DNA of 64,000 nt from an uncultured Cohaesibacter sp. (GTDB taxonomy: Bacteria; Pseudomonadota; Alphaproteobacteria; Rhizobiales; Cohaesibacteraceae), in assembly GCF_963676485.1 (NCBI RefSeq), contig NZ_OY781114.1:4418501-4482500 (forward strand), written 5' to 3'. The translations under genes and the position numbers were made by a program. Position 1 is the stretch's first letter. Every line of letters begins with the position of its first letter. A model generated the notes under the pieces. The model saw only the letters and a list, made by a program, of their open reading frames with translations. It did no database searches and had not been told where the DNA came from. This document shows positions 27,917 through 50,784 of the stretch, piece after piece.

Positions 27917-30900
27917 TCACCCCCACATCACCTTCAGCCCATCCCCGCGCCCGATTGTTTGACTGATTTGATAGATTGCCACCTCATAGCCAGCCGTTGC
28001 GCTGCCTAGATCCGCTTGTCTTTGTGTGGCGCTGTAGCTGGCTTCAGGCGTGCTTGTCTCGATGGTGCGTACAACATCGCCGCCGCTTATGATATCGACT
28101 TCATAGGCTTCCAGCGCTTCGCCCAGCGGCACTTGATAGAGCGCCCAGCTATCGCCATCCAGTCGCGTGCGCCTGATCCATGTGATGGTATGGTTGCCCG
28201 CCTCATCGCTTGCCCATCTGGCATGGACTGGCGCATAGGGCTTGAGCGCCCGCCCGCTAAAGGCGTGTTGCTCGGTCGTGAAGAGATCCGAGCCAACCGT
28301 TTCGCCTTCCGGTCCATAGCGCCAATAATAGCTGATGCCAATATCAGAGAGCCCCATATCTGCTTGCGCTATGCCCTGATCAAGATAGACCAACGCAGCC
28401 CCCGCCGCGACGGTCTCCAGCATGGCGCTTTCAGTGCCAAGCTGGCCGCGCAAAAGGTTGGTCAGGCGATAGCGTTTCGAGCCGATCAGCTCCACAGTTT
28501 GCGCTTGGATGATTTCCCAAACGCCCGCGCTCGTTTCAATGGCAAAGGCATTGCTGCCAGAGAATAATTCCTCTTCAGAGACAGAGAGAAGCGCCCCGCT
28601 GTAAATCTCGATTTCCAGCGCGTTGGCTTTGTCAAACACATAAAGCGGCCCTTTGCCCAAGGCATTGAGGGTCTCGCCAATGATCGCCGAGTGGGAAAAT
28701 TCAATATTGCTTTGCCAACTGCTTTCATTGGTCGAGCGCAACACCAGCCCCGCCCCCGGCCATCGCTTGGCTGAAAGCGCCACATAGCCCGCATTCGGGT
28801 CATTATCCGGCTGGAGCAAGGGCAAGTCCATGAAGCGGGCAATCATGCGCGTTAGGCCTGCATCGGCTTTGCTGAACCGCAAGGAATAGCGCGCCCCGGA
28901 AACCGACAAGCCGGCATCAATAAAGCCGCTTGCCTCACAGGCTCGCCCTTCCCCGTCCTTTACATCGGTCAAGCGCATTTCCCGCGCACCCTTTTGCGTT
29001 GTCACTTCCAGAACGTCGCCCGGTTCCAAGGCCAGCAGGGAAGGCATAAGCGCAAACTGTCCGCTTTCCCGTGCCGCCCAGACATCTTGCAAAAGATACT
29101 CAGCCACGCCCCGCGCCCTATCCTCATCCATGACAATAGCAAGCTGACTTTCCGACACATTCGTTGCATCTGCAAAATTGTTCCAGGCGGTCACCGTGCC
29201 GGAATTATAGGCCTTGTTTGCATTGAGATAGGTAATGCGCACCCCGCGAGCCAGTTCGCTTTCTTGCGCCCGCGTGAGCGTGACCAACTCGCCGCCGCGC
29301 TCGCCGTTCGTATCCTGCAAGCGCTCTTGATCGACATCAGCACAAAGCGGAATGGCCTTTCTGGAAACAGCTTTGATGATGCCGCCTGTCTCGATCAGGT
29401 CAAACGCGAAAGCCAGTTCCAGCGGTTGCCAAGCGCTGCGCAAACTCATCGTTCTATCGATCACATAGCCATCACAAGCGCCGTAAGCCTCACTAAAATC
29501 ATAGGCCGCAAAGCCATATTCTTGAGCAATATGGCCCATCAGATCGGGCATATAGACCATGCCCACCCGTGAGGATAGCCAATGCCCATATTGCCAATTG
29601 TCCGCATCGGCCCAGCTTGCCCCGTCCAGAGGCCAGGAGGGGAAAGGCCGCGCGTCCCAACTCCACACATGCACAGCGTCCATGTCGATCATGGAGCCGC
29701 CATAAAGGCTTGAGGCCGGATTGTTGGCATCATCGGCCCAATAGTCGATCACGGCCCTTAAATGGCTATGCTGTTGCACATCATCCCGCGCCCCGCTGGA
29801 GAAATAGGGCAAGGCGCTTTCACTGGATTTGGGATCAAAGAACACGTTCGGCTGATTGCTGCCCAGATCAAGCGCCGGACAGCCCAACTCGGTAAACCAG
29901 ATAGGCTTGCTTTCTGGTGTCCAGCCGGTTGCCGCGCCATCGCGCACGCCGCCCGGTCTGTTGTGGTGGCTGTTGGCCCACCAGTTCTTCAAATCCTTCT
30001 GGCGGTAAATCCAGTCTTCCCCATGCGCCCCGTCGCTGATCGCGGTGCGCTCTTGCGCCACGCGCGCGGCATTATCCGCATAATAGAAATCATAATATTC
30101 CCCGCCCTCGATGTTGGCCTTGAGATAGTCAAGGCTGTAAGGCGTCACAAAGCCGCGTTCCTGATCATAATCAAGATGGTCCCTACCCCGCCGCCAGTCG
30201 GACAGTGGGAAATAATTATCAATTCCAATGAAATCAATAGCAGGATCGGACCATAGCGGGTCCATGTTGAAAATCACGTCGCCCGACCCGTCGCCCGGTC
30301 TATGGCTGTGATATTCGCTCCAGTCCGCCGCATAGCCGATTTTGGCCGTTGCCCCAAGGATCGCCCGCACGTCAGCAGCCAAGGCCTTAAGGCCCGTTAC
30401 AAACGGATAGTGTGTTGCGTCCTCGCGTACCGTGGTCAGCGCCACCATTTCCGAACCAATGCAGATGGACGCCACACCGCCCGCCGCTTTGGCCAGATTG
30501 GCCAGATGCAACACAAAGCGCCTATAGCTCCACTCATCCGCGCCGGTATAGATGATTGTTTCATTTGCAATGGAAAAGTCACTCACAGCCGCCAAGCCCA
30601 GAAAGGCGCTCACCTGATCGCCCGCCGCGCTCGTCTGGTCAGGGCTTCCAGCTTGCCCCGGTGCCGGGTGGCAAGTGATCCGGCCTCGCCATGGGAATAG
30701 GGCTTGCTCTTCCCCGCCCCAAGGATCGGGCAGCCCGTTACCTTCAGGGATATCGCCCATAATGAAGGGGTAAAGCATGACATCATAGCCACGCTCTTTT
30801 AGCTCGGTAATGGCATGAATGACGGCTTTGTCTGAAGGCGTGCCCCCATAAACCGGATAGCTGTTGCCATCATCATCGGTCAATTGCGTGATCAAAAGCG

Positions 30901-31861
30901 CCGTGTCGCGCGTAAGGCCCGCAACTTGCCAGTTATAGGGTGAGGTTGCCTTGCCCCTGATTTCCACCTTTGGCCGGATGCTGCAGTCACCACAGCGCAA
31001 ATCATCGAAAAACCACGCCACCACGAGGCAAACGCTTTTGACATTCGGCATCACGGTTTGAAGCTGATCAAGGGAAACGGACAAATCAGACGTGCCCTGT
31101 TTCTGATGCACATTCTCGTATTCTTGCCCGATCACCGCCCCACTTGATGACAGCTCTTGCTTGAGCATCACGTCAGGCTCATAGCCAAATTCGGTTGATC
31201 CGGGAATGAGATTAACGCCACGAATGGCGCTTTCAAGCTGTCGGGTTGGCGCTGGTCGGATAATTTCAAAGGTGAATTGCGGAATGCGGTTTCCGTAGTC
31301 GGTCAGCTCCAGCCGGTCAAAAACGATATAGCAAAGCCCGCGATAGGCTGGCGCCATCCCGTCGCCTTCCACGCTTTCAATCAGGCTGTCAGGCTGTTGG
31401 CTCTCGCTGCCATCATGAAAGCGAAAGTCGATTTTTGACATGTCGATTTCTTTGCCATCGGCAAAAATCCGATTGAGATAAACCCCCGGCCCTTCACAAA
31501 GGCCAACCGCAAAATTGGCATAATAGGTGTAGCTTGTCGTTTTGGCCGTTGGCCCGCCGCCCTTGCCGCCCCGCTTGGTCGTGGTGGCCACCTCTTCCAA
31601 GGTGGTGGCCCAGATCACTTGACCGCCAATGCGCGCCCGCCCGTAAGCCCTGTTGATCGCGCTTCCCTCGGTCGAGCTGGTCACCTCCAGGCTATCAAGT
31701 CGCGGCCCTTGGCTATGTGTATCCTTGCCACCGGCCAAAAGCATAGTGTCGATCACAGCCCCGCTCACCGCGCCAATCGTGCCGCCGATCATCGCCCCGA
31801 CCGGACCCAGCAAAGCCCCGCCAAGCACCGTGCCGACCTTTGACAAAACCAGCGTTGACAT
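27917..31861 (-). CDS. GTA gp15/'megatron'-like tail tip and host-specificity protein
   Basis: A 1314-residue baseplate protein. It starts with a hydrophobic Gly-rich segment (VGTVLGGALLGPVGAMIGGTIGAVSGAVI), then the tail-tip beta domain with SAINRAYGRARIGGQVIW. Around residues 400-720 lies a TIM-barrel-like glycosidase-type domain (YAADWSEYH, DPAIDFIGIDNYFPLSD, PIWFTELGCPALD), then putative phage tail (Phage-tail_3-like) beta domains. This is the order in RcGTA gp15. It forms the central tail tip that contacts and pierces the cell surface. The ATG at 31861 follows GGAGG by seven bases. Largest phage gene. Confidence 0.9.
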   Translation of the reverse strand: MSTLVLSKVGTVLGGALLGPVGAMIGGTIGAVSGAVIDTMLLAGGKDTHSQGPRLDSLEVTSSTEGSAINRAYGRARIGGQVIWATTLEEVATTTKRGGKGGGPTAKTTSYTYYANFAVGLCEGPGVYLNRIFADGKEIDMSKIDFRFHDGSESQQPDSLIESVEGDGMAPAYRGLCYIVFDRLELTDYGNRIPQFTFEIIRPAPTRQLESAIRGVNLIPGSTEFGYEPDVMLKQELSSSGAVIGQEYENVHQKQGTSDLSVSLDQLQTVMPNVKSVCLVVAWFFDDLRCGDCSIRPKVEIRGKATSPYNWQVAGLTRDTALLITQLTDDDGNSYPVYGGTPSDKAVIHAITELKERGYDVMLYPFIMGDIPEGNGLPDPWGGEEQALFPWRGRITCHPAPGQAGSPDQTSAAGDQVSAFLGLAAVSDFSIANETIIYTGADEWSYRRFVLHLANLAKAAGGVASICIGSEMVALTTVREDATHYPFVTGLKALAADVRAILGATAKIGYAADWSEYHSHRPGDGSGDVIFNMDPLWSDPAIDFIGIDNYFPLSDWRRGRDHLDYDQERGFVTPYSLDYLKANIEGGEYYDFYYADNAARVAQERTAISDGAHGEDWIYRQKDLKNWWANSHHNRPGGVRDGAATGWTPESKPIWFTELGCPALDLGSNQPNVFFDPKSSESALPYFSSGARDDVQQHSHLRAVIDYWADDANNPASSLYGGSMIDMDAVHVWSWDARPFPSWPLDGASWADADNWQYGHWLSSRVGMVYMPDLMGHIAQEYGFAAYDFSEAYGACDGYVIDRTMSLRSAWQPLELAFAFDLIETGGIIKAVSRKAIPLCADVDQERLQDTNGERGGELVTLTRAQESELARGVRITYLNANKAYNSGTVTAWNNFADATNVSESQLAIVMDEDRARGVAEYLLQDVWAARESGQFALMPSLLALEPGDVLEVTTQKGAREMRLTDVKDGEGRACEASGFIDAGLSVSGARYSLRFSKADAGLTRMIARFMDLPLLQPDNDPNAGYVALSAKRWPGAGLVLRSTNESSWQSNIEFSHSAIIGETLNALGKGPLYVFDKANALEIEIYSGALLSVSEEELFSGSNAFAIETSAGVWEIIQAQTVELIGSKRYRLTNLLRGQLGTESAMLETVAAGAALVYLDQGIAQADMGLSDIGISYYWRYGPEGETVGSDLFTTEQHAFSGRALKPYAPVHARWASDEAGNHTITWIRRTRLDGDSWALYQVPLGEALEAYEVDIISGGDVVRTIETSTPEASYSATQRQADLGSATAGYEVAIYQISQTIGRGDGLKVMWG

Positions 31862-31863
31862 GT

Positions 31864-32304
31864 TCAAACCTCCAGATTGGGAAAGCGGAAAGCAGCGGCA
31901 ATCATGCGACGCCAGTGAGGTGACAAGCTCACCTCAACGACACCACATTTTTCGTATGCGTGGATAAATCGCGCTTCACCGGTCAGGATGCCCAGATGCT
32001 TGGCGCTCTTTGCCCCGCGCCACCGGATCGCGAACACATCCCCCGGCCCCATGTTATCAAGGGCGATTTCCTGCAAATAGGTCCGCCCCGCAGCCAATAG
32101 GCTTTCTGAATTGGTGGCATCGCCCCAATCTGGCGAATAGGCAGGAATATTCGCAGCTTCATAGCCGTAAAGCGCGCGCCATACGCCCCGCACCAATCCA
32201 AGGCAATCACAGCCAACGCCCTTGACGCTGGCTTGATGGTGGTAAGGCGTGCCAAGCCAGCCGCGCGCACTCCCTATGATCTGATCCCGCTTAATATTGG
32301 TCAT
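31864..32304 (-). CDS. NlpC/P60 cell-wall peptidase of the tail (GTA gp14-like)
   Basis: A 146-residue NlpC/P60 peptidase (TIGR02219-type phage cell-wall peptidase). The catalytic Cys is in GVGCDCLGLVRGVWR near residue 33, the His in SAKHLGIL. It is delivered with the tail tip and opens murein during DNA entry. It overlaps the DUF2163 gene by 14 bases. The ATG at 32304 follows GGTGG; a GTG at 32331 is an alternative. Confidence 0.9.
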   Translation of the reverse strand: MTNIKRDQIIGSARGWLGTPYHHQASVKGVGCDCLGLVRGVWRALYGYEAANIPAYSPDWGDATNSESLLAAGRTYLQEIALDNMGPGDVFAIRWRGAKSAKHLGILTGEARFIHAYEKCGVVEVSLSPHWRRMIAAAFRFPNLEV

Positions 32305-33190
32305 AGCGATGCCCACCGGATAAATCGTCACTGTCAGGGCTTGGATAGGTGGTCATAAAGTCATTGCCCGGCATATGCGGGCACCCGCGAAAATTCGCCC
32401 CGTTGTCAAATTTCTTGACGCATGTCGCAAAATGCTTGTCACAACCCGCAACAAGCGTGAGCCGATCCCCCACAGCAACCGGCTTGAGGAATGGCGACCA
32501 GACGCCAACAGAGACAATGCCGCTCGTTACCAAATGACTTTGCAGCGCGTAGCTTTTCCCCGCATTTGCGCCACTGGTAAAGGTGAGAGTGCCACGGTCA
32601 AACCAATTGGCCTCATAACCTTCAGCCCCGGCAATCTGGAGCACTTGCCCGCCGGTCTGTCCTGTCACCACCACATCGACTGAATAGGCCCCGCTTGTTA
32701 GATCAAGCCCGCAGCGCTCATCCCCCAAGCTGGCATCACAACCGGCCTGATAAACACGCCCTTGCTTTTGCTGTAGCTCAGCGGCCAGCCCGCGCACCTC
32801 TGCACTGAAATAGGTATCCCCGCGCGTGATTTCGCCAAGATTGCCCGCCTGCATCAAAAGGCGTTGGGCAAGATCCATCCAGTTCACCCGCCAGACCTCA
32901 ACGCGGGCCCCGTCATAAAGCCCCGCCGCAATATCTTCCTCAGTGATGAAATCAGCAGAAAGCGCGCCCTCTACATCCACATTATCAACGGACAGCCCAA
33001 GGCTTGATTGCAGTTCGGTTGCTGTAAAGCCGCTGTCTGCCGAATAGGTCACCCCGTCAAAAGATAGATCGCAATCATGGTCAGTAAAGCCATAGATTGC
33101 CCCATCGCGTCGGGTCAGTTTCCAGCACCAACAAAGCGTTGTGGCCCCGCTGTCAAGATGGGCCTGCATGCCATCGGGCAAAGTCTTCAT
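32291..33190 (-). CDS. DUF2163 baseplate hub protein (GTA gp13-like)
   Basis: A 299-residue hub protein. An N-terminal DUF2163 domain (CWCWKLTRRDGAIYGFTDHDCDL) precedes the conserved C-terminal beta domain with AGCDKHFATCVKKFDNGANFRGCPHMPG. The Cys set QAGCDASLGDERCG plus CDKHFATC matches the cysteines that bind an iron-sulfur cluster in the RcGTA hub. It overlaps its neighbour on the DUF2460 side by four bases. Confidence 0.88.
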   Translation of the reverse strand: MKTLPDGMQAHLDSGATTLCWCWKLTRRDGAIYGFTDHDCDLSFDGVTYSADSGFTATELQSSLGLSVDNVDVEGALSADFITEEDIAAGLYDGARVEVWRVNWMDLAQRLLMQAGNLGEITRGDTYFSAEVRGLAAELQQKQGRVYQAGCDASLGDERCGLDLTSGAYSVDVVVTGQTGGQVLQIAGAEGYEANWFDRGTLTFTSGANAGKSYALQSHLVTSGIVSVGVWSPFLKPVAVGDRLTLVAGCDKHFATCVKKFDNGANFRGCPHMPGNDFMTTYPSPDSDDLSGGHRYDQY

Positions 33191-33816
33191 AAGATCAGCT
33201 CCACAATGGGGATGGAAGGAACAGAGACAAGCGCGTTATTTTCCCAAGCAATAGACAAACCATCTGTGTCAAAACGCACAGGCACAAAAAAATCAAAGCC
33301 AGCCGTGACCGCAGCGCCCGCCGCTGGCGGAGCCGCCAAGGTCACAAGGCCGGTTGTGTGATCGACACTGAAATCAGTTTCATCAAGCGCCACGCCATCA
33401 ACAGCCACCAGAACCGAATCCGGTTTCGGCTTGCTGATTTTGCGCCTGTATGGGTTGGCGCTGCCATACATCTTGGTAAGCTGAAAGGCCGTTGCGATCC
33501 CGTCGCCGGTGCCTATCGCCTGATCCATTGCCCCCGGTTTGCCCAGAATGGCGCAAGAGCGCAAATCAAACGGATCACAAAAGAGAAAGCCGGAAAGCCG
33601 CCCGCGCACATCCTCGAAGAAAGAAAGCACCTGTTCGGCCTCGTAAATATCGCGGATGCCGGTGCCGACATCCCAAGAGCGCCGAGAGTTCGCCCATTGT
33701 TGGTTTCTTTCTTCCTTGCCCGATCCGCTTTGCACCACTTGCGTTTTGCGTTGTGGTCCGCCTGTCGCGCCAAAGCCGACCTTCACCGGGAAGACAATGT
33801 CCAAGAATGCCGCCAT
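33187..33816 (-). CDS. DUF2460 distal tail protein (GTA gp12-like)
   Basis: A 209-residue distal-tail protein of the TIGR02217/DUF2460 family. FLDIVFPVKVGFGATGGPQRKTQVVQSGSG at the start, then RRSWDVGTGIRDIYEAEQVLSFFEDVRGRLSGFLFCDPFD are almost family-diagnostic. It forms the ring between tail tube and hub. It lies 12 bases after the tape-measure gene. Confidence 0.9.
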   Translation of the reverse strand: MAAFLDIVFPVKVGFGATGGPQRKTQVVQSGSGKEERNQQWANSRRSWDVGTGIRDIYEAEQVLSFFEDVRGRLSGFLFCDPFDLRSCAILGKPGAMDQAIGTGDGIATAFQLTKMYGSANPYRRKISKPKPDSVLVAVDGVALDETDFSVDHTTGLVTLAAPPAAGAAVTAGFDFFVPVRFDTDGLSIAWENNALVSVPSIPIVELIL

Positions 33817-33828
33817 GTTAGAAAGCCC

Positions 33829-35802
33829 CTATTGATTGCGCCCGCCCTGTGCCACAATGCGCGCCATGGTCGTGGCTATCTGGCCTTTGGACTGTTTGAA
33901 GCTTTGAGCGTCAGGCGTGGAAATATACCAGTTGTGTGTGTCGCCCTGCCTGCCCGCGCCATCATGCGCCGAGCCAAATGGCCGATATGGTTCAATCCGT
34001 CCGGCCACGTTGGGCGAAAAAAGCTCTTGCCCGGTTTCGTTCACCTCATAGAGATGCCCAGGCAAAGCAATGCCGCCACCAGCGCGGCCACCGGTTACAA
34101 AGGAAGACAGATCAAGCGCAGAACCGCTTGACGTGATCGCCCCCGCAGCAGAAGTGAAAAGACCGGTAAGAGCGCCGCCAGAGGTTCCCGTCAAGGCAGA
34201 CATGAAAGCCGCCATTGGCCCGGAGCCAAAGAGCGCCGCTTGCGCCGCCGCATTGGCGATCTGTAAGGCAAAGGAGCGCATAGCATCCTCAGCCGAGGAC
34301 GCCCCGCTCACAATGTCCGTAAGTGTATCGAGCCCCGCTTGCCCCAGATATTCGAAATTCTGCGCCAGCTCTTCGGTTTCAAGCTGCATGGCCCTTGCGG
34401 TGCTGATTGCCTCTTGCATCGCCAAGCGTTTTGCCTGAAGGCCCCCAACAGCCGCCGCAATGGCTTGCCCTTGCTCGCTTTCAAGGCTCACACCGGCTTT
34501 TGCCAATGCGTTGTAAAGCTCCTGCTCATCGGACGTGCGCCCAAGCTGCGCGGCTTGATGTTCCAAGGCTAGAATGACCTCTTGCACCTTGTCGGTTTGC
34601 GCCCTGCTTTTCTTGTCATCACCGCCGCCAGTGCCAGAGCCCCCGCCGCCATTGTCGTCAGGCTTGGGTTTTGGGGTGCGCGTTTCTTGCGGAATAAGGC
34701 CAAGTTCGCGCTGTTTGGCCTTGATATCCAGACCAGCCACGCTAATCACCCCGCCGCCCAGATCATAATCAGCCTGCGCAATCAATTTCGCAGTGCGTTT
34801 AATCTCCTGCCATTGCCGGTCAGCCCGCGCGCGCGCCGCTTTGAGATCGTCCGAATATGTCCCTTGCGCCCGTAGTCCGATCAAGTCCTTTTGGGCGCGC
34901 TTATAGTTCTCTTGCGCTTCCCTATATTGATCAGCAAGCCGAAAAACCGTGTCGACCTGCCCACCACCGGAATCCCCCAGAACGCTATCATCAAAGCTGT
35001 TTTTAAGCTGGATCAACGCCGCCGTGACAGAAACAACCGAGCCTTTGATTTTGGTGCCAATGATGGTTGAAAGGGTGTCAAATTCGCGGTTGATCTGTTG
35101 CGCCTGTTGGGCAACTTTTTCGTCAAGTACAATGCCCAGCCGCCGCGCTTCTTCACGCGCATTTTTAAGCCCCTTTTCGCCCCGCTCGATCATTTGAACG
35201 AATTGTTCGCCACCCGTGCCGCCGAAAACCTCGTCCGCAATACGAATTTGCGCTGCTTTATCAAACTGTTGCAACCGTCCGACAATGTCTTCAAAGAGCT
35301 TGTCAGGCTCTTTTAGCCGTTCCTTTAGATCGTCTGCGCCATAGCCTAGCCGCTTAAAGGCATCCGCGCCGCTGCCCTTGCCGGTCAAAATGAATTCATC
35401 AGCCCTAAGCTGCATTTCCTTAAGGCCATCGGTCAGAGCATCAATGGAAACACCGCTTTTTGAGGCTGCAAATTCCAGCTCTTGAAAGGCTTCAAAGCTC
35501 ACACCGGCCCGCTTGGCTTCTGTTGCCATCTCGCCAATTTGCTCAGCCGAATTTTTCGCCAGCGCGGCAACTCCAGCCAACCCGCCGCCCACAGCAATGC
35601 CAGCAAAACCACCAACAGCAGAAACAGCCCTCGTTGCTGCCTTGCCCAATCCGCCAAGGCGCGACGTGAATTTGAGGACGCTTTTCTCACTTCGGTCCAT
35701 GCTGGACGCGGTGTTTTTCTCGATTTTCTTTAAGGCCTTGTTGAATTGGGTGGTGTTCGCCTCAATCCGCAAGACCAGTTTTTCAAGATCTTTCTCAGCC
35801 AT
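33829..35802 (-). CDS. Tail tape-measure protein
   Basis: A 657-residue protein with long helical stretches, a Gly/Ala-rich hydrophobic segment near residues 50-85 (GGFAGIAVGGGLAGVAALA), and Ala/Gln-rich coiled coils. It is about three times the length of the RcGTA counterpart. By the usual 1.5 angstrom per residue rule that implies a tail near 100 nm, so a phage-sized tail. It begins inside the end of the frameshifted tail-chaperone reading frame (8-base overlap). Confidence 0.88.
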   Translation of the reverse strand: MAEKDLEKLVLRIEANTTQFNKALKKIEKNTASSMDRSEKSVLKFTSRLGGLGKAATRAVSAVGGFAGIAVGGGLAGVAALAKNSAEQIGEMATEAKRAGVSFEAFQELEFAASKSGVSIDALTDGLKEMQLRADEFILTGKGSGADAFKRLGYGADDLKERLKEPDKLFEDIVGRLQQFDKAAQIRIADEVFGGTGGEQFVQMIERGEKGLKNAREEARRLGIVLDEKVAQQAQQINREFDTLSTIIGTKIKGSVVSVTAALIQLKNSFDDSVLGDSGGGQVDTVFRLADQYREAQENYKRAQKDLIGLRAQGTYSDDLKAARARADRQWQEIKRTAKLIAQADYDLGGGVISVAGLDIKAKQRELGLIPQETRTPKPKPDDNGGGGSGTGGGDDKKSRAQTDKVQEVILALEHQAAQLGRTSDEQELYNALAKAGVSLESEQGQAIAAAVGGLQAKRLAMQEAISTARAMQLETEELAQNFEYLGQAGLDTLTDIVSGASSAEDAMRSFALQIANAAAQAALFGSGPMAAFMSALTGTSGGALTGLFTSAAGAITSSGSALDLSSFVTGGRAGGGIALPGHLYEVNETGQELFSPNVAGRIEPYRPFGSAHDGAGRQGDTHNWYISTPDAQSFKQSKGQIATTMARIVAQGGRNQ

Positions 35803-36007
35803 ACCGCGCCTTCAATTCTTCAAATCGTTCCTTGGACATGCTTGGTTTTTCCGGCTTGCCGTACCGCTGATTAAAGCCCTCGATCGCGTCGACATAATCA
35901 CGCAAGGTTGCTTGATTGAACTCGCTAGGACTCCAGCCAAGAAAGGCAAAGGCAACCTGCTTTATGCGTCTGAAGGGGATGCGGTCGCTTCCCCTTCCGG
36001 CTTTCCC
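35795..36007 (-). CDS. Tail assembly chaperone extension, -1 frame (GTA gp10.1-like)
   Basis: This frame has no ATG, GTG or TTG start in its first 60 codons downstream of its last upstream stop (TGA, about 20 bases before the slip site). It encodes a conserved-looking sequence RRIKQVAFAFLGWSPSEF and ends KERFEELKARYG, stop at 35797-35795. It is reached by a -1 shift from the upstream chaperone at G GGA AAG (36007-36001). The fusion product would be 172 residues: 104 from the first frame and 68 from this one. This mirrors gpG-gpGT of lambda, which coats the tape measure before tube assembly. Confidence 0.82.
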   Translation of the reverse strand, partial: GKAGRGSDRIPFRRIKQVAFAFLGWSPSEFNQATLRDYVDAIEGFNQRYGKPEKPSMSKERFEELKARYG

Positions 36008-36312
36008 GGCTGGCTTTTTGCCTCAGGCATGCCCGCCGCCAGAGCGGCCACGATTGCCGCGTCCGCCTCTTCACTGGTCGCGCCAAAAAGCAACCCATCC
36101 GCCGCGCCCTTGCTGTCTGGTCCGGCAAGACATTTGACGCCCGCATAAGTCAAACGCGGATCATGCACCGCCGCCATGAAATGCAGTTGCTTAAGGCCGG
36201 TAATCTGAAGATCAGCCATCAAAGCGGCCACCCTTGGCAGGGTGGCTTGAAGTGTGAAGTCTTTCCCGCCCAAGGTAACGGAAACCTCACCGGTCAATTC
36301 ATTGATTTGCAT
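35962..36312 (-). CDS. Tail assembly chaperone (GTA gp10-like)
   Basis: A 116-residue protein of the GTA TtAC/gp10 family (MQINELTGEVSVTLGGKDFTLQ and the KQLHFMAAVHDPRLT region). Located between major tail protein and tape measure, the fixed place for tail chaperones. The ATG at 36312 follows GGAGG by five bases; the longer upstream frame overlaps the major tail gene and is rejected. The last 13 codons contain the slip site for the fusion form. Confidence 0.88.
   Translation of the reverse strand: MQINELTGEVSVTLGGKDFTLQATLPRVAALMADLQITGLKQLHFMAAVHDPRLTYAGVKCLAGPDSKGAADGLLFGATSEEADAAIVAALAAGMPEAKSQPGKPEGEATASPSDA
35972..36007 (-). promoter_or_regulatory. Programmed -1 frameshift signal (slippery GGGAAAG plus stem-loop)
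   Basis: In the chaperone frame the codons read CCG GGA AAG, giving the heptamer G GGA AAG, the same as in lambda gene G. Three bases later GAAGGGG (35997-35991) pairs with CCCCTTC (35978-35972) over a 12-base loop. Upstream of the heptamer the -1 frame is closed by a TGA; downstream it is open to the tape-measure start. Confidence 0.88.
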
Positions 36313-36322
36313 GATCGCCTCC

Positions 36323-36748
36323 TTAAGCCGCAGCCGCCCAGGTCGGCACGCTTTCCCACCCGAACTCAGCAGAAATCGCCAAATCTTCGTTGGTGTTGCC
36401 GGTAAAGGTGATTTTGACATAGGCAGGCCCGGTAAAGCTGCCATAGGCGGGCACAGTCACCTTGAATTTCATGGTGACGCCTGTGCGCGCAGCGTCAAAA
36501 ATAGCTTTTGTGCGTGTGTTGATTTCAGCGATGCCGGAGCCGCTAAAGCTCAGATCAATATTGCCCGCCCGCTTGGTCACCTGTGCCGGTTTCGTCCGAT
36601 CCCCGTCACATTCAGGGACAATTCGGTCGACCATATCCGGCCCCATGGAAAAGTCAGTGCTGGTAATGCCGCAAAAGTCGACATAGGAATCCGGTGTTTC
36701 AGGGTCTTCAACCTGAATAAACAGCTCTTGACCAAGATGCTTTGTCAT
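36323..36748 (-). CDS. Major tail protein (GTA gp9-like)
   Basis: A 141-residue tube protein of the phage major tail/TP901-1-like family. TKHLGQELFIQVEDPETPDSYVDFCGITSTDFSM and CDGDRTKPAQVTKRAGNIDLSFSGSG are typical. Polymerises into the tail tube. The ATG at 36748 overlaps the previous stop and follows GAGG by seven bases. Confidence 0.88.
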   Translation of the reverse strand: MTKHLGQELFIQVEDPETPDSYVDFCGITSTDFSMGPDMVDRIVPECDGDRTKPAQVTKRAGNIDLSFSGSGIAEINTRTKAIFDAARTGVTMKFKVTVPAYGSFTGPAYVKITFTGNTNEDLAISAEFGWESVPTWAAAA

Positions 36749-37170
36749 GTGCAAGCCTCATAGAGTTTGATTTCAAATCGCATGTCACAAAAATAGACCC
36801 TGTTTTCAGGTCCGTTGATATCTTCCCCGCGCCAAATGACCCGCATGCTTGCCCCATCGGCCAACGTGAAAGAGGCCTTGTGCAGGCTGTTGCGAATTTG
36901 CGCAGCAATGGCCATGGCTTCGGCCTTGCCTCTATCGCGGCTATGCACCTCCAGCATTTGGAAAATGACTTCTCCAAGCCGGTTGCCGACGTCATTTTCA
37001 TCACCGGCAAAGTTGCCCAGAACACAGAAAGGATAATGTTGCCCCATATGGCCCGGACGCCCCTTTGAGGGACTTTCGGGCATAAAGTCATAGATCCGCC
37101 CCTCACAGATCCCCGCCGCCTTAAGCGCGCTTACAAGCTGCTCTTGCGCCTTTGTGAAATCGAGCGCCAT
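36745..37170 (-). CDS. Tail terminator protein, DUF3168 family (GTA gp8-like)
   Basis: A 141-residue DUF3168 protein (LVSALKAAGICEGRIYDFMPESP, HPFCVLG-like QHYPFCVLGNF, RLGEVIFQMLEVHSRDRG). The family caps the tail tube at its head-proximal end. The ATG at 37170 follows GGTGAGG. It overlaps the major tail gene by four bases. Confidence 0.85.
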   Translation of the reverse strand: MALDFTKAQEQLVSALKAAGICEGRIYDFMPESPSKGRPGHMGQHYPFCVLGNFAGDENDVGNRLGEVIFQMLEVHSRDRGKAEAMAIAAQIRNSLHKASFTLADGASMRVIWRGEDINGPENRVYFCDMRFEIKLYEACT

Positions 37171-44678: not shown

Positions 44679-47552
44679 CTAGCCAAGATTTTTACGGCAA
44701 TCCTCCCAGATAGCTCTCACGATTTCTGTATCAGGATGCTCCTTGCCCAACACGCGCTCAAAGATTTCAAGACCCTGTCTATAAAGCGGCTCAGCTTCCT
44801 CATAACGGCCCTGATCATCTAGGTTAAAAGCAATATTGTTGTAGCTCGTGGCCGTTGATGGATGCTTCTTGCCCAACACGCGCTCGCAGATTTCAAGACC
44901 CTGTCTAAAAAGCGGCTCGGCTTCCTCATAACGGCCCTGCGCATGCAAGTTAGAAGCAACATTGCTGTAGCTATCGGCCGTTGATGGATGCTCCTTGCCT
45001 AACACACGCTCGCGGATTTCAAGCCCCTGTCTATAAAGCGGCTCGGCTTCCTCATAACGGCCCTGATCATCTAGGTTAGAAGCAACATTGTTGTAGCTCG
45101 TGGCCGTTGACGGATGCTCCTTCCCCAACACACGCTCGCGGATTTCAAGCCCCTGTCGATAAAGCGGCTCGGCTTCCTCATAACGGCCCTGCGCATTCAA
45201 GTTAGAAGCAACATTGTTGTAGCTCGTGGCCGTTGACGGATGCTCCTTGCCCAACACACGCTCGCGGATTTCAAGCCCCTGTCTATAAAGCGGCTCGGCT
45301 TCCTCATAACGGCCCTGATCATCTAGGTTAGAAGCAACATTGTTGTAGCTATCGGCCGTATCTGGATGCTCCTTGCCCAAGATACGCTCGCGGATTTCAA
45401 GCCCCTTTCTATAAAGCGGCTCGGCTTCCTCATATCGGCCCCGCGCATCCAAGTTAGAAGCAACATTGTTGTAGCTATCGGCCGTATCTGGATGCTCCTT
45501 GCCCAACACACGCTCGCGGATTTCAAGCCCCTTTCTATAAAGCGGCTCGGCTTCCTCATAACGGCCCTGATCATCTAGGTTAGAAGCAACATTGTTGTAG
45601 CTCGTGGCCGTTGATGGATGCTCCTTGCCCAAAACTCGCTCGAGGATTTCAAGCCCCTGTCGATAAAGCGGCTCGGCTTCCGAATAACGCCCCTGCGCAT
45701 TCAAGTTAGAAGCAACATTGTTGTAGCTCGTGGCCGTTGATGGATGCTCCTTGCCCAACACGCGCTCGCAGATTTCAAGACCCTGTCTAAAAAGCGGCTC
45801 GGCTTCCTCATAACGGCCCTGCGCATGCAAGTTAGAAGCAACATTGTTGTAGCTCGTGGCCGTATCTGGATGCTCCTTGCCTAACACACGCTCGCGGATT
45901 TCAAGCCCCTTTCTATAAAGCGGCTCGGCTTCCTCATATCGGCCCCGCGCATTCAAGTTAGAAGCAACATTGTTGTAGCTCGTGGCCGTTGATGGATGCT
46001 CCTTGCCCAACACACGCTCGCGGATTTCAAGCCCCTTTCGAAAAAGCGGCTCGGCTTCTTCATAACGGCCCTGCGCATCCAAGTTAGAAGCAACATTATT
46101 ATAGCTCGTGGCCGTATCTGGATGCTCCTTACCCAACACACACTCGAATATTTCAAGCCCCTGTCTATAAAGCGGCTCGGCTTCTTCATAACGGCCCTGC
46201 GCATCCAAGTTAGAAGCAACATTATTATAGCTCGTGGCCGTATCTGGATGCTCCTTACCCAACACACACTCGAATATTTCAAGCCCCTGTCTCAAAAGCG
46301 GCTCGGCTTCTTCATAACGGCCCTGCGCATCCAAGTTAGAAGCAACATTATTATAGCTCGTGGCCGTTGATGGATGCTTCTTACCCAACACACGCTCGCT
46401 GATTTCAAGCCCCTGTCTCAAAAGCGGCTCGGCTTCCTCATAACGGCCCTTCGCATTCAAGTTCATTGCAACATTGTTGTAGCTTGCGGCCGTTGATGGA
46501 TGCTCCTTGCCAAAACAGTCTTCAAATAGTTTGCTCTGTTGGCGATAGAGATCGACAGCTTTAGAATATTGAAACTTGATCACGGCAATGTCTGCGCGTT
46601 TCCCCAATATCTTTGCGCGGTTTTCTTTGTCTATTTTTACCTGCTCTTCACGCTCGGAGATGATCTCCATGTAACGCGTATCAGCTTTTTCTAGCGCGCT
46701 TTCAGCTTTATCGAGTGAGAAGCTTGCACCTTCATTTAGCGCCCTGTCAGCTGCTTCCAAAAGCGGCATGATCTCCGGAACCTCATTTGACAGTGATCTC
46801 AAATCACCCAAACCGGCCCGCAACTCTTTCAGCTTTTCGTAGGCTCGTTCTACTTCTGCGACGATATTCTCGCGTACAATAGGCTTTTCCAGAATAAACC
46901 CGACAAGTTGAATCAAATCGCTTTCGCTTGCGTCCCGCTGGTTGGCTCTGATTTCTTGCACAATCTGTTCAATGTTGAAGACTTTTTGTTCAACGACTCC
47001 AAGAGTTCTTGCCATCTCAAACATCAATTCGGGTTCAAGTTCGGCGTAATAGTCCTTATTTTGAACAGCAGCTTCAATCCCGGCCTTGATCACGTCATGA
47101 GCATATTGATAGGGCAACGTATCCTTCTTGTCCTTGCCGAACAGATCTGCCCGTTGCTCCCCCAATTCTTTCAGAAGAATTGTCACAGCTTCCTCAGGAA
47201 AGCCCTTTGCTGTCACTGCCGACTTGGCCAATTTATGACGGTCAATGAAGCTTTTTCCCAGACACTTACTCAAAGCTTGATCGGCAGCTTTAAGGTCAGC
47301 ACTAAGCGCCCAACTATCACCCTCAACTTCAAGAAAACTCTTGTAGTTTTTAAAGACGTCTTTTTGGATACGATCTCGAACACGTGCGCATTCAGGCCCA
47401 AACTTCTGCTTTTTGCCTAAAACAAAACTAGCAATCCCAGCAATCCCGATAAGAGCCTCTATTCCGCCAGTAGGAAGTGCACCAAACGCAACCGAGGTCG
47501 AGCCAACACAAATAGCAGCCAGCCGTTCAAAACCGTTCTCATAAAATCCCAT
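44679..47552 (-). CDS. Large TPR-repeat accessory protein (kinesin-light-chain type)
   Basis: A 957-residue protein. Residues 1-45 hold hydrophobic, Gly/Ala-rich segments (probable membrane anchor). Residues 46-347 are helical and charged without a recognised domain. Residues 348-935 are fourteen consecutive 42-residue TPR units of the form GKEHP(S/D)TATSYNNVASNL-AQGRYEEAEPL-RQGLEI-ERVL. Units are nearly identical, showing recent expansion. No catalytic domain was found, so it is likely a scaffold or sensor. The ATG at 47552 is chosen over a TTG at 47564. It splits HNH and terminase genes and is probably a moron; defence or exclusion is possible but unproven. Confidence 0.85.
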   Translation of the reverse strand: MGFYENGFERLAAICVGSTSVAFGALPTGGIEALIGIAGIASFVLGKKQKFGPECARVRDRIQKDVFKNYKSFLEVEGDSWALSADLKAADQALSKCLGKSFIDRHKLAKSAVTAKGFPEEAVTILLKELGEQRADLFGKDKKDTLPYQYAHDVIKAGIEAAVQNKDYYAELEPELMFEMARTLGVVEQKVFNIEQIVQEIRANQRDASESDLIQLVGFILEKPIVRENIVAEVERAYEKLKELRAGLGDLRSLSNEVPEIMPLLEAADRALNEGASFSLDKAESALEKADTRYMEIISEREEQVKIDKENRAKILGKRADIAVIKFQYSKAVDLYRQQSKLFEDCFGKEHPSTAASYNNVAMNLNAKGRYEEAEPLLRQGLEISERVLGKKHPSTATSYNNVASNLDAQGRYEEAEPLLRQGLEIFECVLGKEHPDTATSYNNVASNLDAQGRYEEAEPLYRQGLEIFECVLGKEHPDTATSYNNVASNLDAQGRYEEAEPLFRKGLEIRERVLGKEHPSTATSYNNVASNLNARGRYEEAEPLYRKGLEIRERVLGKEHPDTATSYNNVASNLHAQGRYEEAEPLFRQGLEICERVLGKEHPSTATSYNNVASNLNAQGRYSEAEPLYRQGLEILERVLGKEHPSTATSYNNVASNLDDQGRYEEAEPLYRKGLEIRERVLGKEHPDTADSYNNVASNLDARGRYEEAEPLYRKGLEIRERILGKEHPDTADSYNNVASNLDDQGRYEEAEPLYRQGLEIRERVLGKEHPSTATSYNNVASNLNAQGRYEEAEPLYRQGLEIRERVLGKEHPSTATSYNNVASNLDDQGRYEEAEPLYRQGLEIRERVLGKEHPSTADSYSNVASNLHAQGRYEEAEPLFRQGLEICERVLGKKHPSTATSYNNIAFNLDDQGRYEEAEPLYRQGLEIFERVLGKEHPDTEIVRAIWEDCRKNLG
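44748..46511 (-). repeat. Fourteen tandem 126-bp repeats inside the TPR gene
   Basis: Exactly 14 x 126 bp, each one 42-residue TPR. Neighbouring copies differ mainly at the variable positions (S/D after HP, Y/F/L after EPL, residue after GLEI). Copy number is prone to change by slippage or recombination, and short-read assemblies could collapse it. Confidence 0.92.
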
Positions 47553-47816
47553 GGTATTTCTCAATATCTAAAGTAGTGAACCAGATATATTTTTAGATAT
47601 TTTCTCTGCACTCGCAATACGGGAAATTGCTTTATGTCCGCCGCGATCAAAACCTCTCGTTTCTCACAACGCATTCGACCAAGATAAATCCAACCATCAT
47701 ATTGAATTAATTGCAAAAATGGGTTTTCTCTTTTGAATTACAGCCTCATAAAATTACTTCTACCCCGCCGGTCCGCAGGGGGTGGAGTTGGGAAGATTTG
47801 ACCTCCCCCCTCCCCA

Positions 47817-49614: not shown

Positions 49615-50784
49615 ATGAACATGCTCAACAAGATCAAGGCGATGGCGCGAACTGTGAAAGAAAGTACTGTTTCTCGCGACAGCAACATAGGCAATTACGC
49701 AATCTTGCTGGTGAAGCGCCTCTATTTTCTGGTCTCGAATTATTGGGGCTGGCCGGTTTCCTTTGTCTGGATCGGTGCCGTCGGCTTCATCATCTTGCAG
49801 CCTCAGATCGCGCAAGATTGGGACAAAATCGATACCATCGCCCAATGGAAGCAACTGACGGGCGGCACTACTGATCCCTCTTCTATGTTGCGCAATCTTG
49901 GTTGGCTCTTGATCACAGCGGTTGGATTGCCGTTGCTTATCTGGCGCACCTTTGTAGCGGCTAAACAGGCGAAGACAGGGATTAAGAGAACCGAGCAGGT
50001 TGCCAACCAACTCGAACTCACCCGGCAAGGCCAATCGGCTGATCGTTATGTCAAAGCGGCAGCCATGTTGAGTGATGAAAAAATCTCTGTCCGCGAAGCT
50101 GGCATTTTTGCTTTGCGTCAATTGGCGATTTCTGATCCAGATGAATATTATTTTCCGGTGCAGGATCTTTTTTGCAGCTTTATGCGCGCCGAAGGAATGA
50201 GAAGCCGGCTGGAGGCAGGAAACGAAGAGCAGCCAGTTCGCTGCAAGCCTTGCGACAGCGATGTGATCTCGGCCTTGCGCGCATTTTCTGAGCTTAGAAC
50301 CGTGCAAAATATGGAAAGGGAGGAAGCGCGAGACTGGGAGCCCAATTTGCGACAATGCAATTTCAATAGACTCCCCGAACATAGAAAAATGATCAACCTT
50401 GAAGGAGCGAACCTGCAGGGTACCCAGTTTCAAATGGCCTTCCTTATGTTCGCAAATCTCCAGAAAGCCTTCCTCTTTCAAGCAGAGCTTCAGGACGCAG
50501 ACCTCTTCCATGCACAGCTCCAGGGGGCTGATTTTACGGACGCAAAGCTCCAGAGCTGCGACCTCATGAGCACGCAGCTCCAAGGAGCGGAACTCAGAAA
50601 CACGTGCCTCGATAAGGGGCAACTGGATAAGTCGGCCGATTTGACCGATGCGAAATTCTCGCTTCCAATCTGGCCGAAAGAAAATTGGCCTAAAGGTTGG
50701 CAGCCTTCGGGTATTCTGGAGGATGAATGGGGGGGGCAAGAGTATTTCACCTTCATCCGTACGGAGGTGCGCGATGAAGAATAA
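49615..50784 (+). CDS. Membrane-anchored pentapeptide-repeat protein
   Basis: A 389-residue protein read against the phage operon. Two membrane helices (WPVSFVWIGAVGFIIL near 45-60; WLLITAVGLPLLIW near 102-116) are followed by a helical segment with SADRYVKAAAMLSDEKISVREAGIFALRQLA. From about residue 262 comes a pentapeptide-repeat solenoid (LEGANLQGTQF, FANLQKAFLFQAELQDADL, LQGADF, LQSCDL). The start follows GGAG by four bases. Similar proteins are frequent in proteobacterial accessory DNA, with no settled function. The orientation suggests a lysogenically expressed moron. Confidence 0.82.
   Translation: MNMLNKIKAMARTVKESTVSRDSNIGNYAILLVKRLYFLVSNYWGWPVSFVWIGAVGFIILQPQIAQDWDKIDTIAQWKQLTGGTTDPSSMLRNLGWLLITAVGLPLLIWRTFVAAKQAKTGIKRTEQVANQLELTRQGQSADRYVKAAAMLSDEKISVREAGIFALRQLAISDPDEYYFPVQDLFCSFMRAEGMRSRLEAGNEEQPVRCKPCDSDVISALRAFSELRTVQNMEREEARDWEPNLRQCNFNRLPEHRKMINLEGANLQGTQFQMAFLMFANLQKAFLFQAELQDADLFHAQLQGADFTDAKLQSCDLMSTQLQGAELRNTCLDKGQLDKSADLTDAKFSLPIWPKENWPKGWQPSGILEDEWGGQEYFTFIRTEVRDEE

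Follow-up and report, generated by a model that had tools for sequence, protein, structure and literature searches.

A putative lambda-type G/GT tail chaperone pair in a Cohaesibacter prophage and its probable counterparts in alphaproteobacterial GTAs

Overlapping frames between the tail tube and tape measure genes

The late operon of a prophage lies on the minus strand of the window (the whole 64-kb stretch of Cohaesibacter DNA that was analyzed). Its head-side genes are arranged in the order HNH, small and large terminase, portal, protease, capsid, and connector, and head-completion, HK97 gp10-like, and tail-completion genes come before the tail tube gene. The HNH gene and that of the small terminase flank a possible cargo gene (44679-47564, minus strand) for a 961-aa protein that matches TPR_12 at least 14 times and has a PADLOC TPR match (E 2e-25). 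A pentapeptide-repeat protein (49615-50784) is encoded on the opposite, plus strand and adjoins the prophage module. The tail tube and tape measure genes enclose two overlapping ORFs, G and T, the second of which is in the −1 frame (Table 1). In phage lambda, the gene order is tail tube, G, T, tape measure, and gene G uses the heptamer G GGA AAG.

Table 1. Features of the G/T locus and of the neighboring tail genes, in window coordinates
Feature	Position	Strand	Remarks
G, tail assembly chaperone (0 frame), 116 aa	35962..36312	−	ATG 36312 to TAA 35964-35962; GTA gp10-like N-terminal part
Shine-Dalgarno AAGGAGG	36318..36324	−	Strong; 5 nt ahead of the G start codon (ATG); read from the sequence
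Slippery heptamer GGGAAAG	36001..36007	−	In phase near the end of G, read G GGA AAG
GAGG, SD-like core, candidate stimulator	36021..36024	−	13 nt upstream of the heptamer
7-bp stem-loop GAAGGGG (35997-35991)/CCCCTTC (35978-35972)	35972..35997	−	Begins three bases past the heptamer
T, continuation in the −1 frame (68 codons past the slip, then TGA)	35795..36001	−	Open from AAA to TGA 35797-35795
Major tail (tube) protein	36323..36754	−	Phage_tail_2 E 4.6e-10; phrog_1407
Tape measure protein, 657 aa	33829..35802	−	phrog_10574 E 2e-122
GTA-type tail-tip genes	27917..33816	−	DUF2460, baseplate hub, NlpC/P60, GTA_TIM protein

The first base of the heptamer (36007) is at codon position 3 of the G ORF, and the in-phase G GGA AAG pointed out in the initial annotation is borne out by the reading of this ORF. 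The rest of that description holds equally well: the 7-bp stem is present, and the −1 frame is shut by a TGA (36025-36023) five codons before the GGG, has no usual start, and continues for 68 codons to the tape measure gene, the ATG of which (35802) is overlapped by the end of T. The first ATG, GTG, or TTG of this frame, a TTG at 35905, is already within the conserved T domain, and none of these three codons precedes that domain in the window locus. GGGAAAG has 15 copies on both strands of the window, from which about 0.002 in-phase copies are expected by chance in the overlap of ~60 nt. The 56 nt that follow the heptamer have a predicted fold of −20.6 kcal/mol (z −2.1).

The −1 frame had also been described as protein-like, and its translation does match Phage_TAC_6 (PF09550) with an E-value of 2.9e-4 and a score of 21.6 bits, which is under the Pfam curated cut-off of 23.4. 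G has no Pfam match above the cut-off, and none to Phage_TAC_11/GTA gp10 (PF11836) even at E 1. In hhalign comparisons, a profile of seven window-type T sequences aligned with 123 GTA T domains at a probability of 97.7% over 58 columns, and a profile of the seven G sequences aligned with 115 GTA gp10 domains at a probability of 85% over 41 columns. Because of these two profile-profile matches, the pair is placed by its sequence as a distant relative of GTA gp10/gp10.1, although neither G nor T of the window reaches the Pfam threshold. AlphaFold models of G and T, with a mean pLDDT of 46 and 65, respectively, were too poor to use.

The element itself is a prophage and not the GTA of the host, because (i) its tape measure has 657 residues, which sets it apart from an RcGTA-like cluster with a short (~200 aa) tape measure, (ii) the Terminase_4 small subunit and HNH genes adjoin it, and (iii) the host genome carries a separate GTA-type cluster elsewhere (C1:49173, L001). 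In the host GTA cluster, T has no near start and the in-phase AAACCCC is a doubtful slip site; the family group of this cluster is mixed: T has an ATG in L098, L102, and L105, and L103 lacks an in-phase site.

Conservation of the heptamer in Cohaesibacter and in phages

A search for the G/T fusion in 199 genomes gave 12 matches, seven of which are from the genus group of the window, its own locus included; two of the seven are also found in named records (Cohaesibacter haloalkalitolerans and C. marisflavi). GGGAAAG is in phase and T is open in the −1 frame in all seven of these distinct window-type loci. Their G proteins are 53–97% identical, and whole codons have been inserted or deleted between the heptamer and the T domain while the heptamer itself is fixed. 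Among the 42 columns of the G alignment in which the residue is invariant, the codon is invariant in nine, and CCG-GGA-AAG is the sole run of three invariant codons. The glycine of the heptamer is encoded by GGA in 7/7 loci, compared to 22 of the 436 glycine codons (5%) in 11 other prophage genes. By its codons, the heptamer of the window-type loci looks selected.

An SD-like core (GGAG, GAGG, or AGGA) ends 8–14 nt upstream of the heptamer in five of the seven loci and is missing from the other two. A conserved stem-loop stimulator was considered and rejected: the z values of the 60 nt downstream of the heptamer (mononucleotide shuffle) range from −2.6 to +0.4, the stems are differently placed, and no notable fold follows the heptamer in two of the seven loci (G012 and G016). 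The downstream stem of the window, which is not conserved, is probably not essential. Among the five weaker matches of the fusion search, L013 and L015 have GGGAAAG in phase, L014 has AAAAAAG and GGGCCCG, L016 has CCCTTTC, and T was not found in L017.

The same heptamer is in phase in Sinorhizobium phage phi2LM21, within p42, and T (p43, L168 1888-2139), which is given a CTG start in the GenBank record, has no ATG, GTG, or TTG from the preceding stop to the T domain. With the tape measure of this phage as query, 74 viral loci were obtained, and 53 of the 56 loci L172-L227 yielded a T. The heptamer is in phase in 52 of these 53 phi2LM21-type rhizobial provirus loci (39/40 distinct ones), none of which has an ATG, GTG, or TTG within 25 codons upstream of T. 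At the heptamer glycine, GGA is used in 44/45 sequences, compared to 1/45 and 0/44 at two other conserved glycines. The lone exception, L172, has GGGGAAG instead, with the Gly and Lys of G unchanged. The check proposed in the initial annotation, conservation of the heptamer in related phages, is thus answered in its favor by both sets (7/7 window-type and 52/53 phi2LM21-type loci).

Other arrangements are found further afield. An in-phase GGGAAAC coexists with an ATG for T in Rhizobium phages RHph_Y3_1 and RHph_Y3_56_1, and an in-phase CCCAAAG with a downstream ATG in Alteromonas phage PB15. Among the distant viral loci, L228 (CCCTTTG) and L244 (GGGAAAC) have a site in phase and no start, L236 and L237 have an ATG and no slip site, and in L238, which has starts, nothing but a distant upstream A run is seen. 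In this wider viral set, 16 of the 81 loci gave no T.

GTA-like gp10/gp10.1 pairs with and without a start for T

Phage_TAC_6 matched 188/297 genomes of the order and 54/385 of the class. From the order, 110 loci were taken among the matches listed, nearly by score (one was skipped) plus eight from the family group of the window; from the class, 30 loci were taken from matching genomes, 28 of them new. G/T pairs were parsed in 154 of the 165 loci (L001-L165), 144 of which are distinct and 126 GTA-like, and the 11 loci that gave no G/T pair by profiles were left out of the count. L009-L012, L021-L024, and L027, which represent four divergent window-type prophages (one also a viral record), were dropped and read separately; L017, with no T match, and L164 were also dropped from the pair count. 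A pair was called GTA-like solely by an ORF of 150–300 aa after T (155–244 aa observed), and the class of L155 is doubtful as its downstream ORF looks spurious. Eight clusters, picked for their differing slip types and read over 18–19.5 kb, all contain gp8 to gp15 homologues in order and GTA_TIM.

The start state was defined by an ATG, GTG, or TTG at most 25 codons before the T domain. The 126 GTA-like pairs comprise 69 without a start (23 family groups), 22 with GTG/TTG, and 35 with ATG. L029 was counted in the GTG/TTG group; it reads AAACCCTTGA, as do MW091529 and MW462191, and the TTG that overlaps the stop could be a start. In all 69 pairs without a start, T is in the −1 frame. An XXXYYYZ site is in phase in 59 of them, compared to five and five in the other two phases, and absent from phase in ten. 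Such a site is in phase in 6/22 pairs with GTG/TTG and in 5/35 with ATG (no-start vs ATG, Fisher p 1e-12 with related loci counted separately). With one locus per family group, the mean is 18.0 of 23 in phase vs 0.7 and 1.1. Among the 144 distinct pairs, an in-phase GGGAAAG is carried by 16/79 that lack a start and by 0/65 that have one; in the stretch that was scanned, no copy was out of phase.

The type of slip site differs by family group. GGGAAAG is found in f12, f21, f31, f172, and f80 (the last through L155, of doubtful class), f11, f20, f32, and f35 have CCCTTTC/G ahead of the T domain, and CCCTTTC/G/T at the PFPW codons is the sole site in loci of f2, f35, f56, f61, and f177. The AAACCC sites are weak slip candidates in view of the TTG that could act as a start in L029, MW091529, and MW462191. 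GGGAAAG was counted as 18 sites in 16 loci, three of them in L155 at −60, −48, and −24 nt from the T domain; such a repetition of the slip site would be unusual. In eight GTA-like loci (L070, L081, L093, L107, L115, L124, L135, L147), a stop (TAA/TAG) directly follows the heptamer, so gpG would end in Gly-Lys.

SD-like cores ending 8–14 nt upstream of a site, a placing known for bacterial −1 sites (dnaX), were counted as GGAG, GAGG, or AGGA, with seven shifted windows as controls. They were found at 8/14 upstream CCCTTT sites (controls 0–1), 12/23 CCCTTT sites at PF codons (controls 0–5), 6/12 AAACCC sites (controls 0–2), and, in modest excess, 7/18 GGGAAAG sites (controls 0–4). RBS-like motifs are also treated in the PRFect paper (PMC10885494). 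A tree of the 126 GTA-like loci contains 25 changes of start state but yields only six independent pairs on supported branches. In these six, an in-phase site goes with start loss in 2.6, against it in 0.1, and makes no difference in 3.3 (median p 0.25), so the test is underpowered.

Probable programmed frameshifting, its alternatives, and known systems

The comparison of relatives, including the conservation of the rare GGA codon, strongly supports the −1 G/GT reading proposed in the initial annotation. In addition to the gene arrangement, an in-phase X XXY YYZ is kept among relatives and T has no independent usual start, a conserved ATC being a possible rare one. We put the probability that the window locus is a lambda-type G/GT chaperone pair with programmed −1 ribosomal frameshifting at about 0.9. 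Most ribosomes would stop at the TAA of G and release the 116-aa gpG, and a minority would slip one base back on G GGA AAG (to GGG AAA) and produce a gpGT of 172 aa that joins the first 104 residues of gpG to the Phage_TAC_6-like domain. We infer that the upstream GAGG stimulates the slippage; by analogy to lambda, gpG would coat the tape measure and the T domain would recruit the tail-tube protein. The predicted gpGT would escape ORF-by-ORF annotation.

T could instead be a separate gene that starts at the non-AUG codon ATC (35980-35978), coupled to the termination of G and aided by the purine-rich AAGGGGAAG upstream. This ATC begins the conserved IPF/IPW stretch of T in 7/7 window-type loci, most of which have purine-rich sequence upstream of it, and the T of phi2LM21 is, as mentioned, annotated from CTG. 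Nevertheless, such a start leaves the invariant in-phase heptamer and its rare codon unexplained, and the isoleucine belongs to a conserved IPW motif that is mostly FPW in the GTA relatives. Furthermore, in the T frame, 32 of the 69 GTA-like pairs that lack a usual start have a CTG, ATT, ATC, or ATA at a distance of 25 codons or less, which is below the 39 and 66 of the other two frames. We therefore consider a separate ATC-initiated gene very improbable, and it is harder still to credit that the heptamer is coincidental, the by-product of a conserved Gly-Lys in G beside a T that is unexpressed or a decayed gene. The 15 copies of GGGAAAG in the window and the conservation of PGK at the protein level would fit a coincidence, but it is the codons, beyond the residues, that are conserved, T is open and has 23 invariant columns in the seven window-type sequences, and the slip sites of the 79 pairs without a start are distributed over the phases as 69:6:6.

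The initial annotation had suggested that GTA gp10/gp10.1 may be a frameshift pair missed by annotation. The 59 in-phase sites in 69 pairs without a start support this suggestion, at the level of sequence, for many lineages. Because 35/126 pairs have an ATG and 22/126 a GTG or TTG near T, frameshifting is, on the sequences sampled, not universal among GTAs: other lineages give T its own start, and most of these show what the initial annotation had named as a refutation, an in-frame start without the heptamer, which confines the claim to part of the GTAs. We regard it as likely that g10/g10.1 is a G/GT frameshift pair in many alphaproteobacterial GTAs, with a repeated swap, in these domesticated particles, between a ratio control by frameshifting and a separate start. 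The sites used would be G GGA AAG and C CCT TTC/G, possibly also A AAC CCT/C, helped by an SD-like stimulator upstream. The in-phase XXXYYYZ sites, chiefly CCCTTTC at PFPW, could alternatively result from the amino acids and codon preference of T, since Pro-Phe codons in the T frame give an in-phase CCCTTT automatically. This kind of site is the sole one in 20 of the 59 GTA-like pairs with a site, PF is encoded by CCCTTT in 9/22 pairs that have a start as well, and the tree-based test, with its six usable pairs, is not significant. However, 39/69 vs 5 and 5 persist when CCCTTTC at PFPW is removed. PF is CCCTTT in 22/26 no-start pairs lacking another slip site (20/23 where PF is inside G) vs 4/20 having one (Fisher p 1.6e-5), the contrast to pairs with a start has a p of 0.002, and SD-like cores at the PF sites exceed those in the shifted windows. 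Codon preference is thus an unlikely source of these sites, and frameshifting in many GTAs is the reading that we prefer.

The window itself adds one more probable G/GT pair with a lambda-type heptamer; the claim on many GTAs, drawn from sequence comparison, is the more interesting part. If the claim is true, the short GTA tail-assembly gene g10.1 is the C-terminal half of a frameshift product in many lineages, and the G:GT ratio control of lambda operates in a system that has ceased to be viral and is now bacterial. The purpose of this ratio could then be tested directly by comparing natural GTA lineages that use the shift with those that do not.

Conserved tail frameshifts were reportedly surveyed by Xu and others in 2004, and that survey may contain an earlier remark on GTAs; in the open-access literature searched, part of it in incomplete text, we found no description of frameshifting in GTA g10/g10.1. 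Tail chaperone 1 (g10) and tail chaperone 2 (g10.5) of RcGTA are separate genes in PMC11409702, and the word frameshift is absent from the portion of that paper available. The available portion of PMC9765227 sets g10.1 aside as under 300 nt, and the words frameshift, chaperone, g10, gp10, rcc01692, and rcc01693 are all absent from that of PMC7296036. The accessible text of PMC8601537 implies a tail-chaperone frameshift in most R. capsulatus phages described there.

The alphaproteobacterial GTA g10/g10.1 (Phage_TAC_11/Phage_TAC_6) resembles the window locus in its related T, in the N-terminal part of G, and in the GTA-type tail-tip genes, but differs in the ORF that follows the pair, which has 155–244 aa in GTA-like pairs compared to the 657-aa tape measure of the window. 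Phage phi2LM21 and the rhizobial proviruses share the in-phase GGGAAAG and a T without a usual start; unlike in the window, the N-terminus of T is different, and GenBank gives separate proteins p42 and p43. The part of PMC5537653 that was searched names the phi2LM21 chaperone and does not contain the word frameshift. In Pseudomonas phage Adele, according to the available part of PMC12846349, an ORF annotated as separate is likewise a −1 extension of the tail assembly chaperone, but the slip motif is GTTTTT and the phage is a myovirus. Lambda G/GT, the mechanism of which is treated in the accessible part of PMC5009743, has the same gene order, a T in the −1 frame of G, and the heptamer G GGA AAG. 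In contrast to lambda, the T of the window is Phage_TAC_6-like and its G is GTA gp10-like; the likeness is one of arrangement and heptamer, as opposed to one drawn from a sequence comparison. G_GGA_AAG is highly shift-prone in E. coli and is also named for the archaeal virus HCTV-5, as stated in the same part of that source (PMC5009743).
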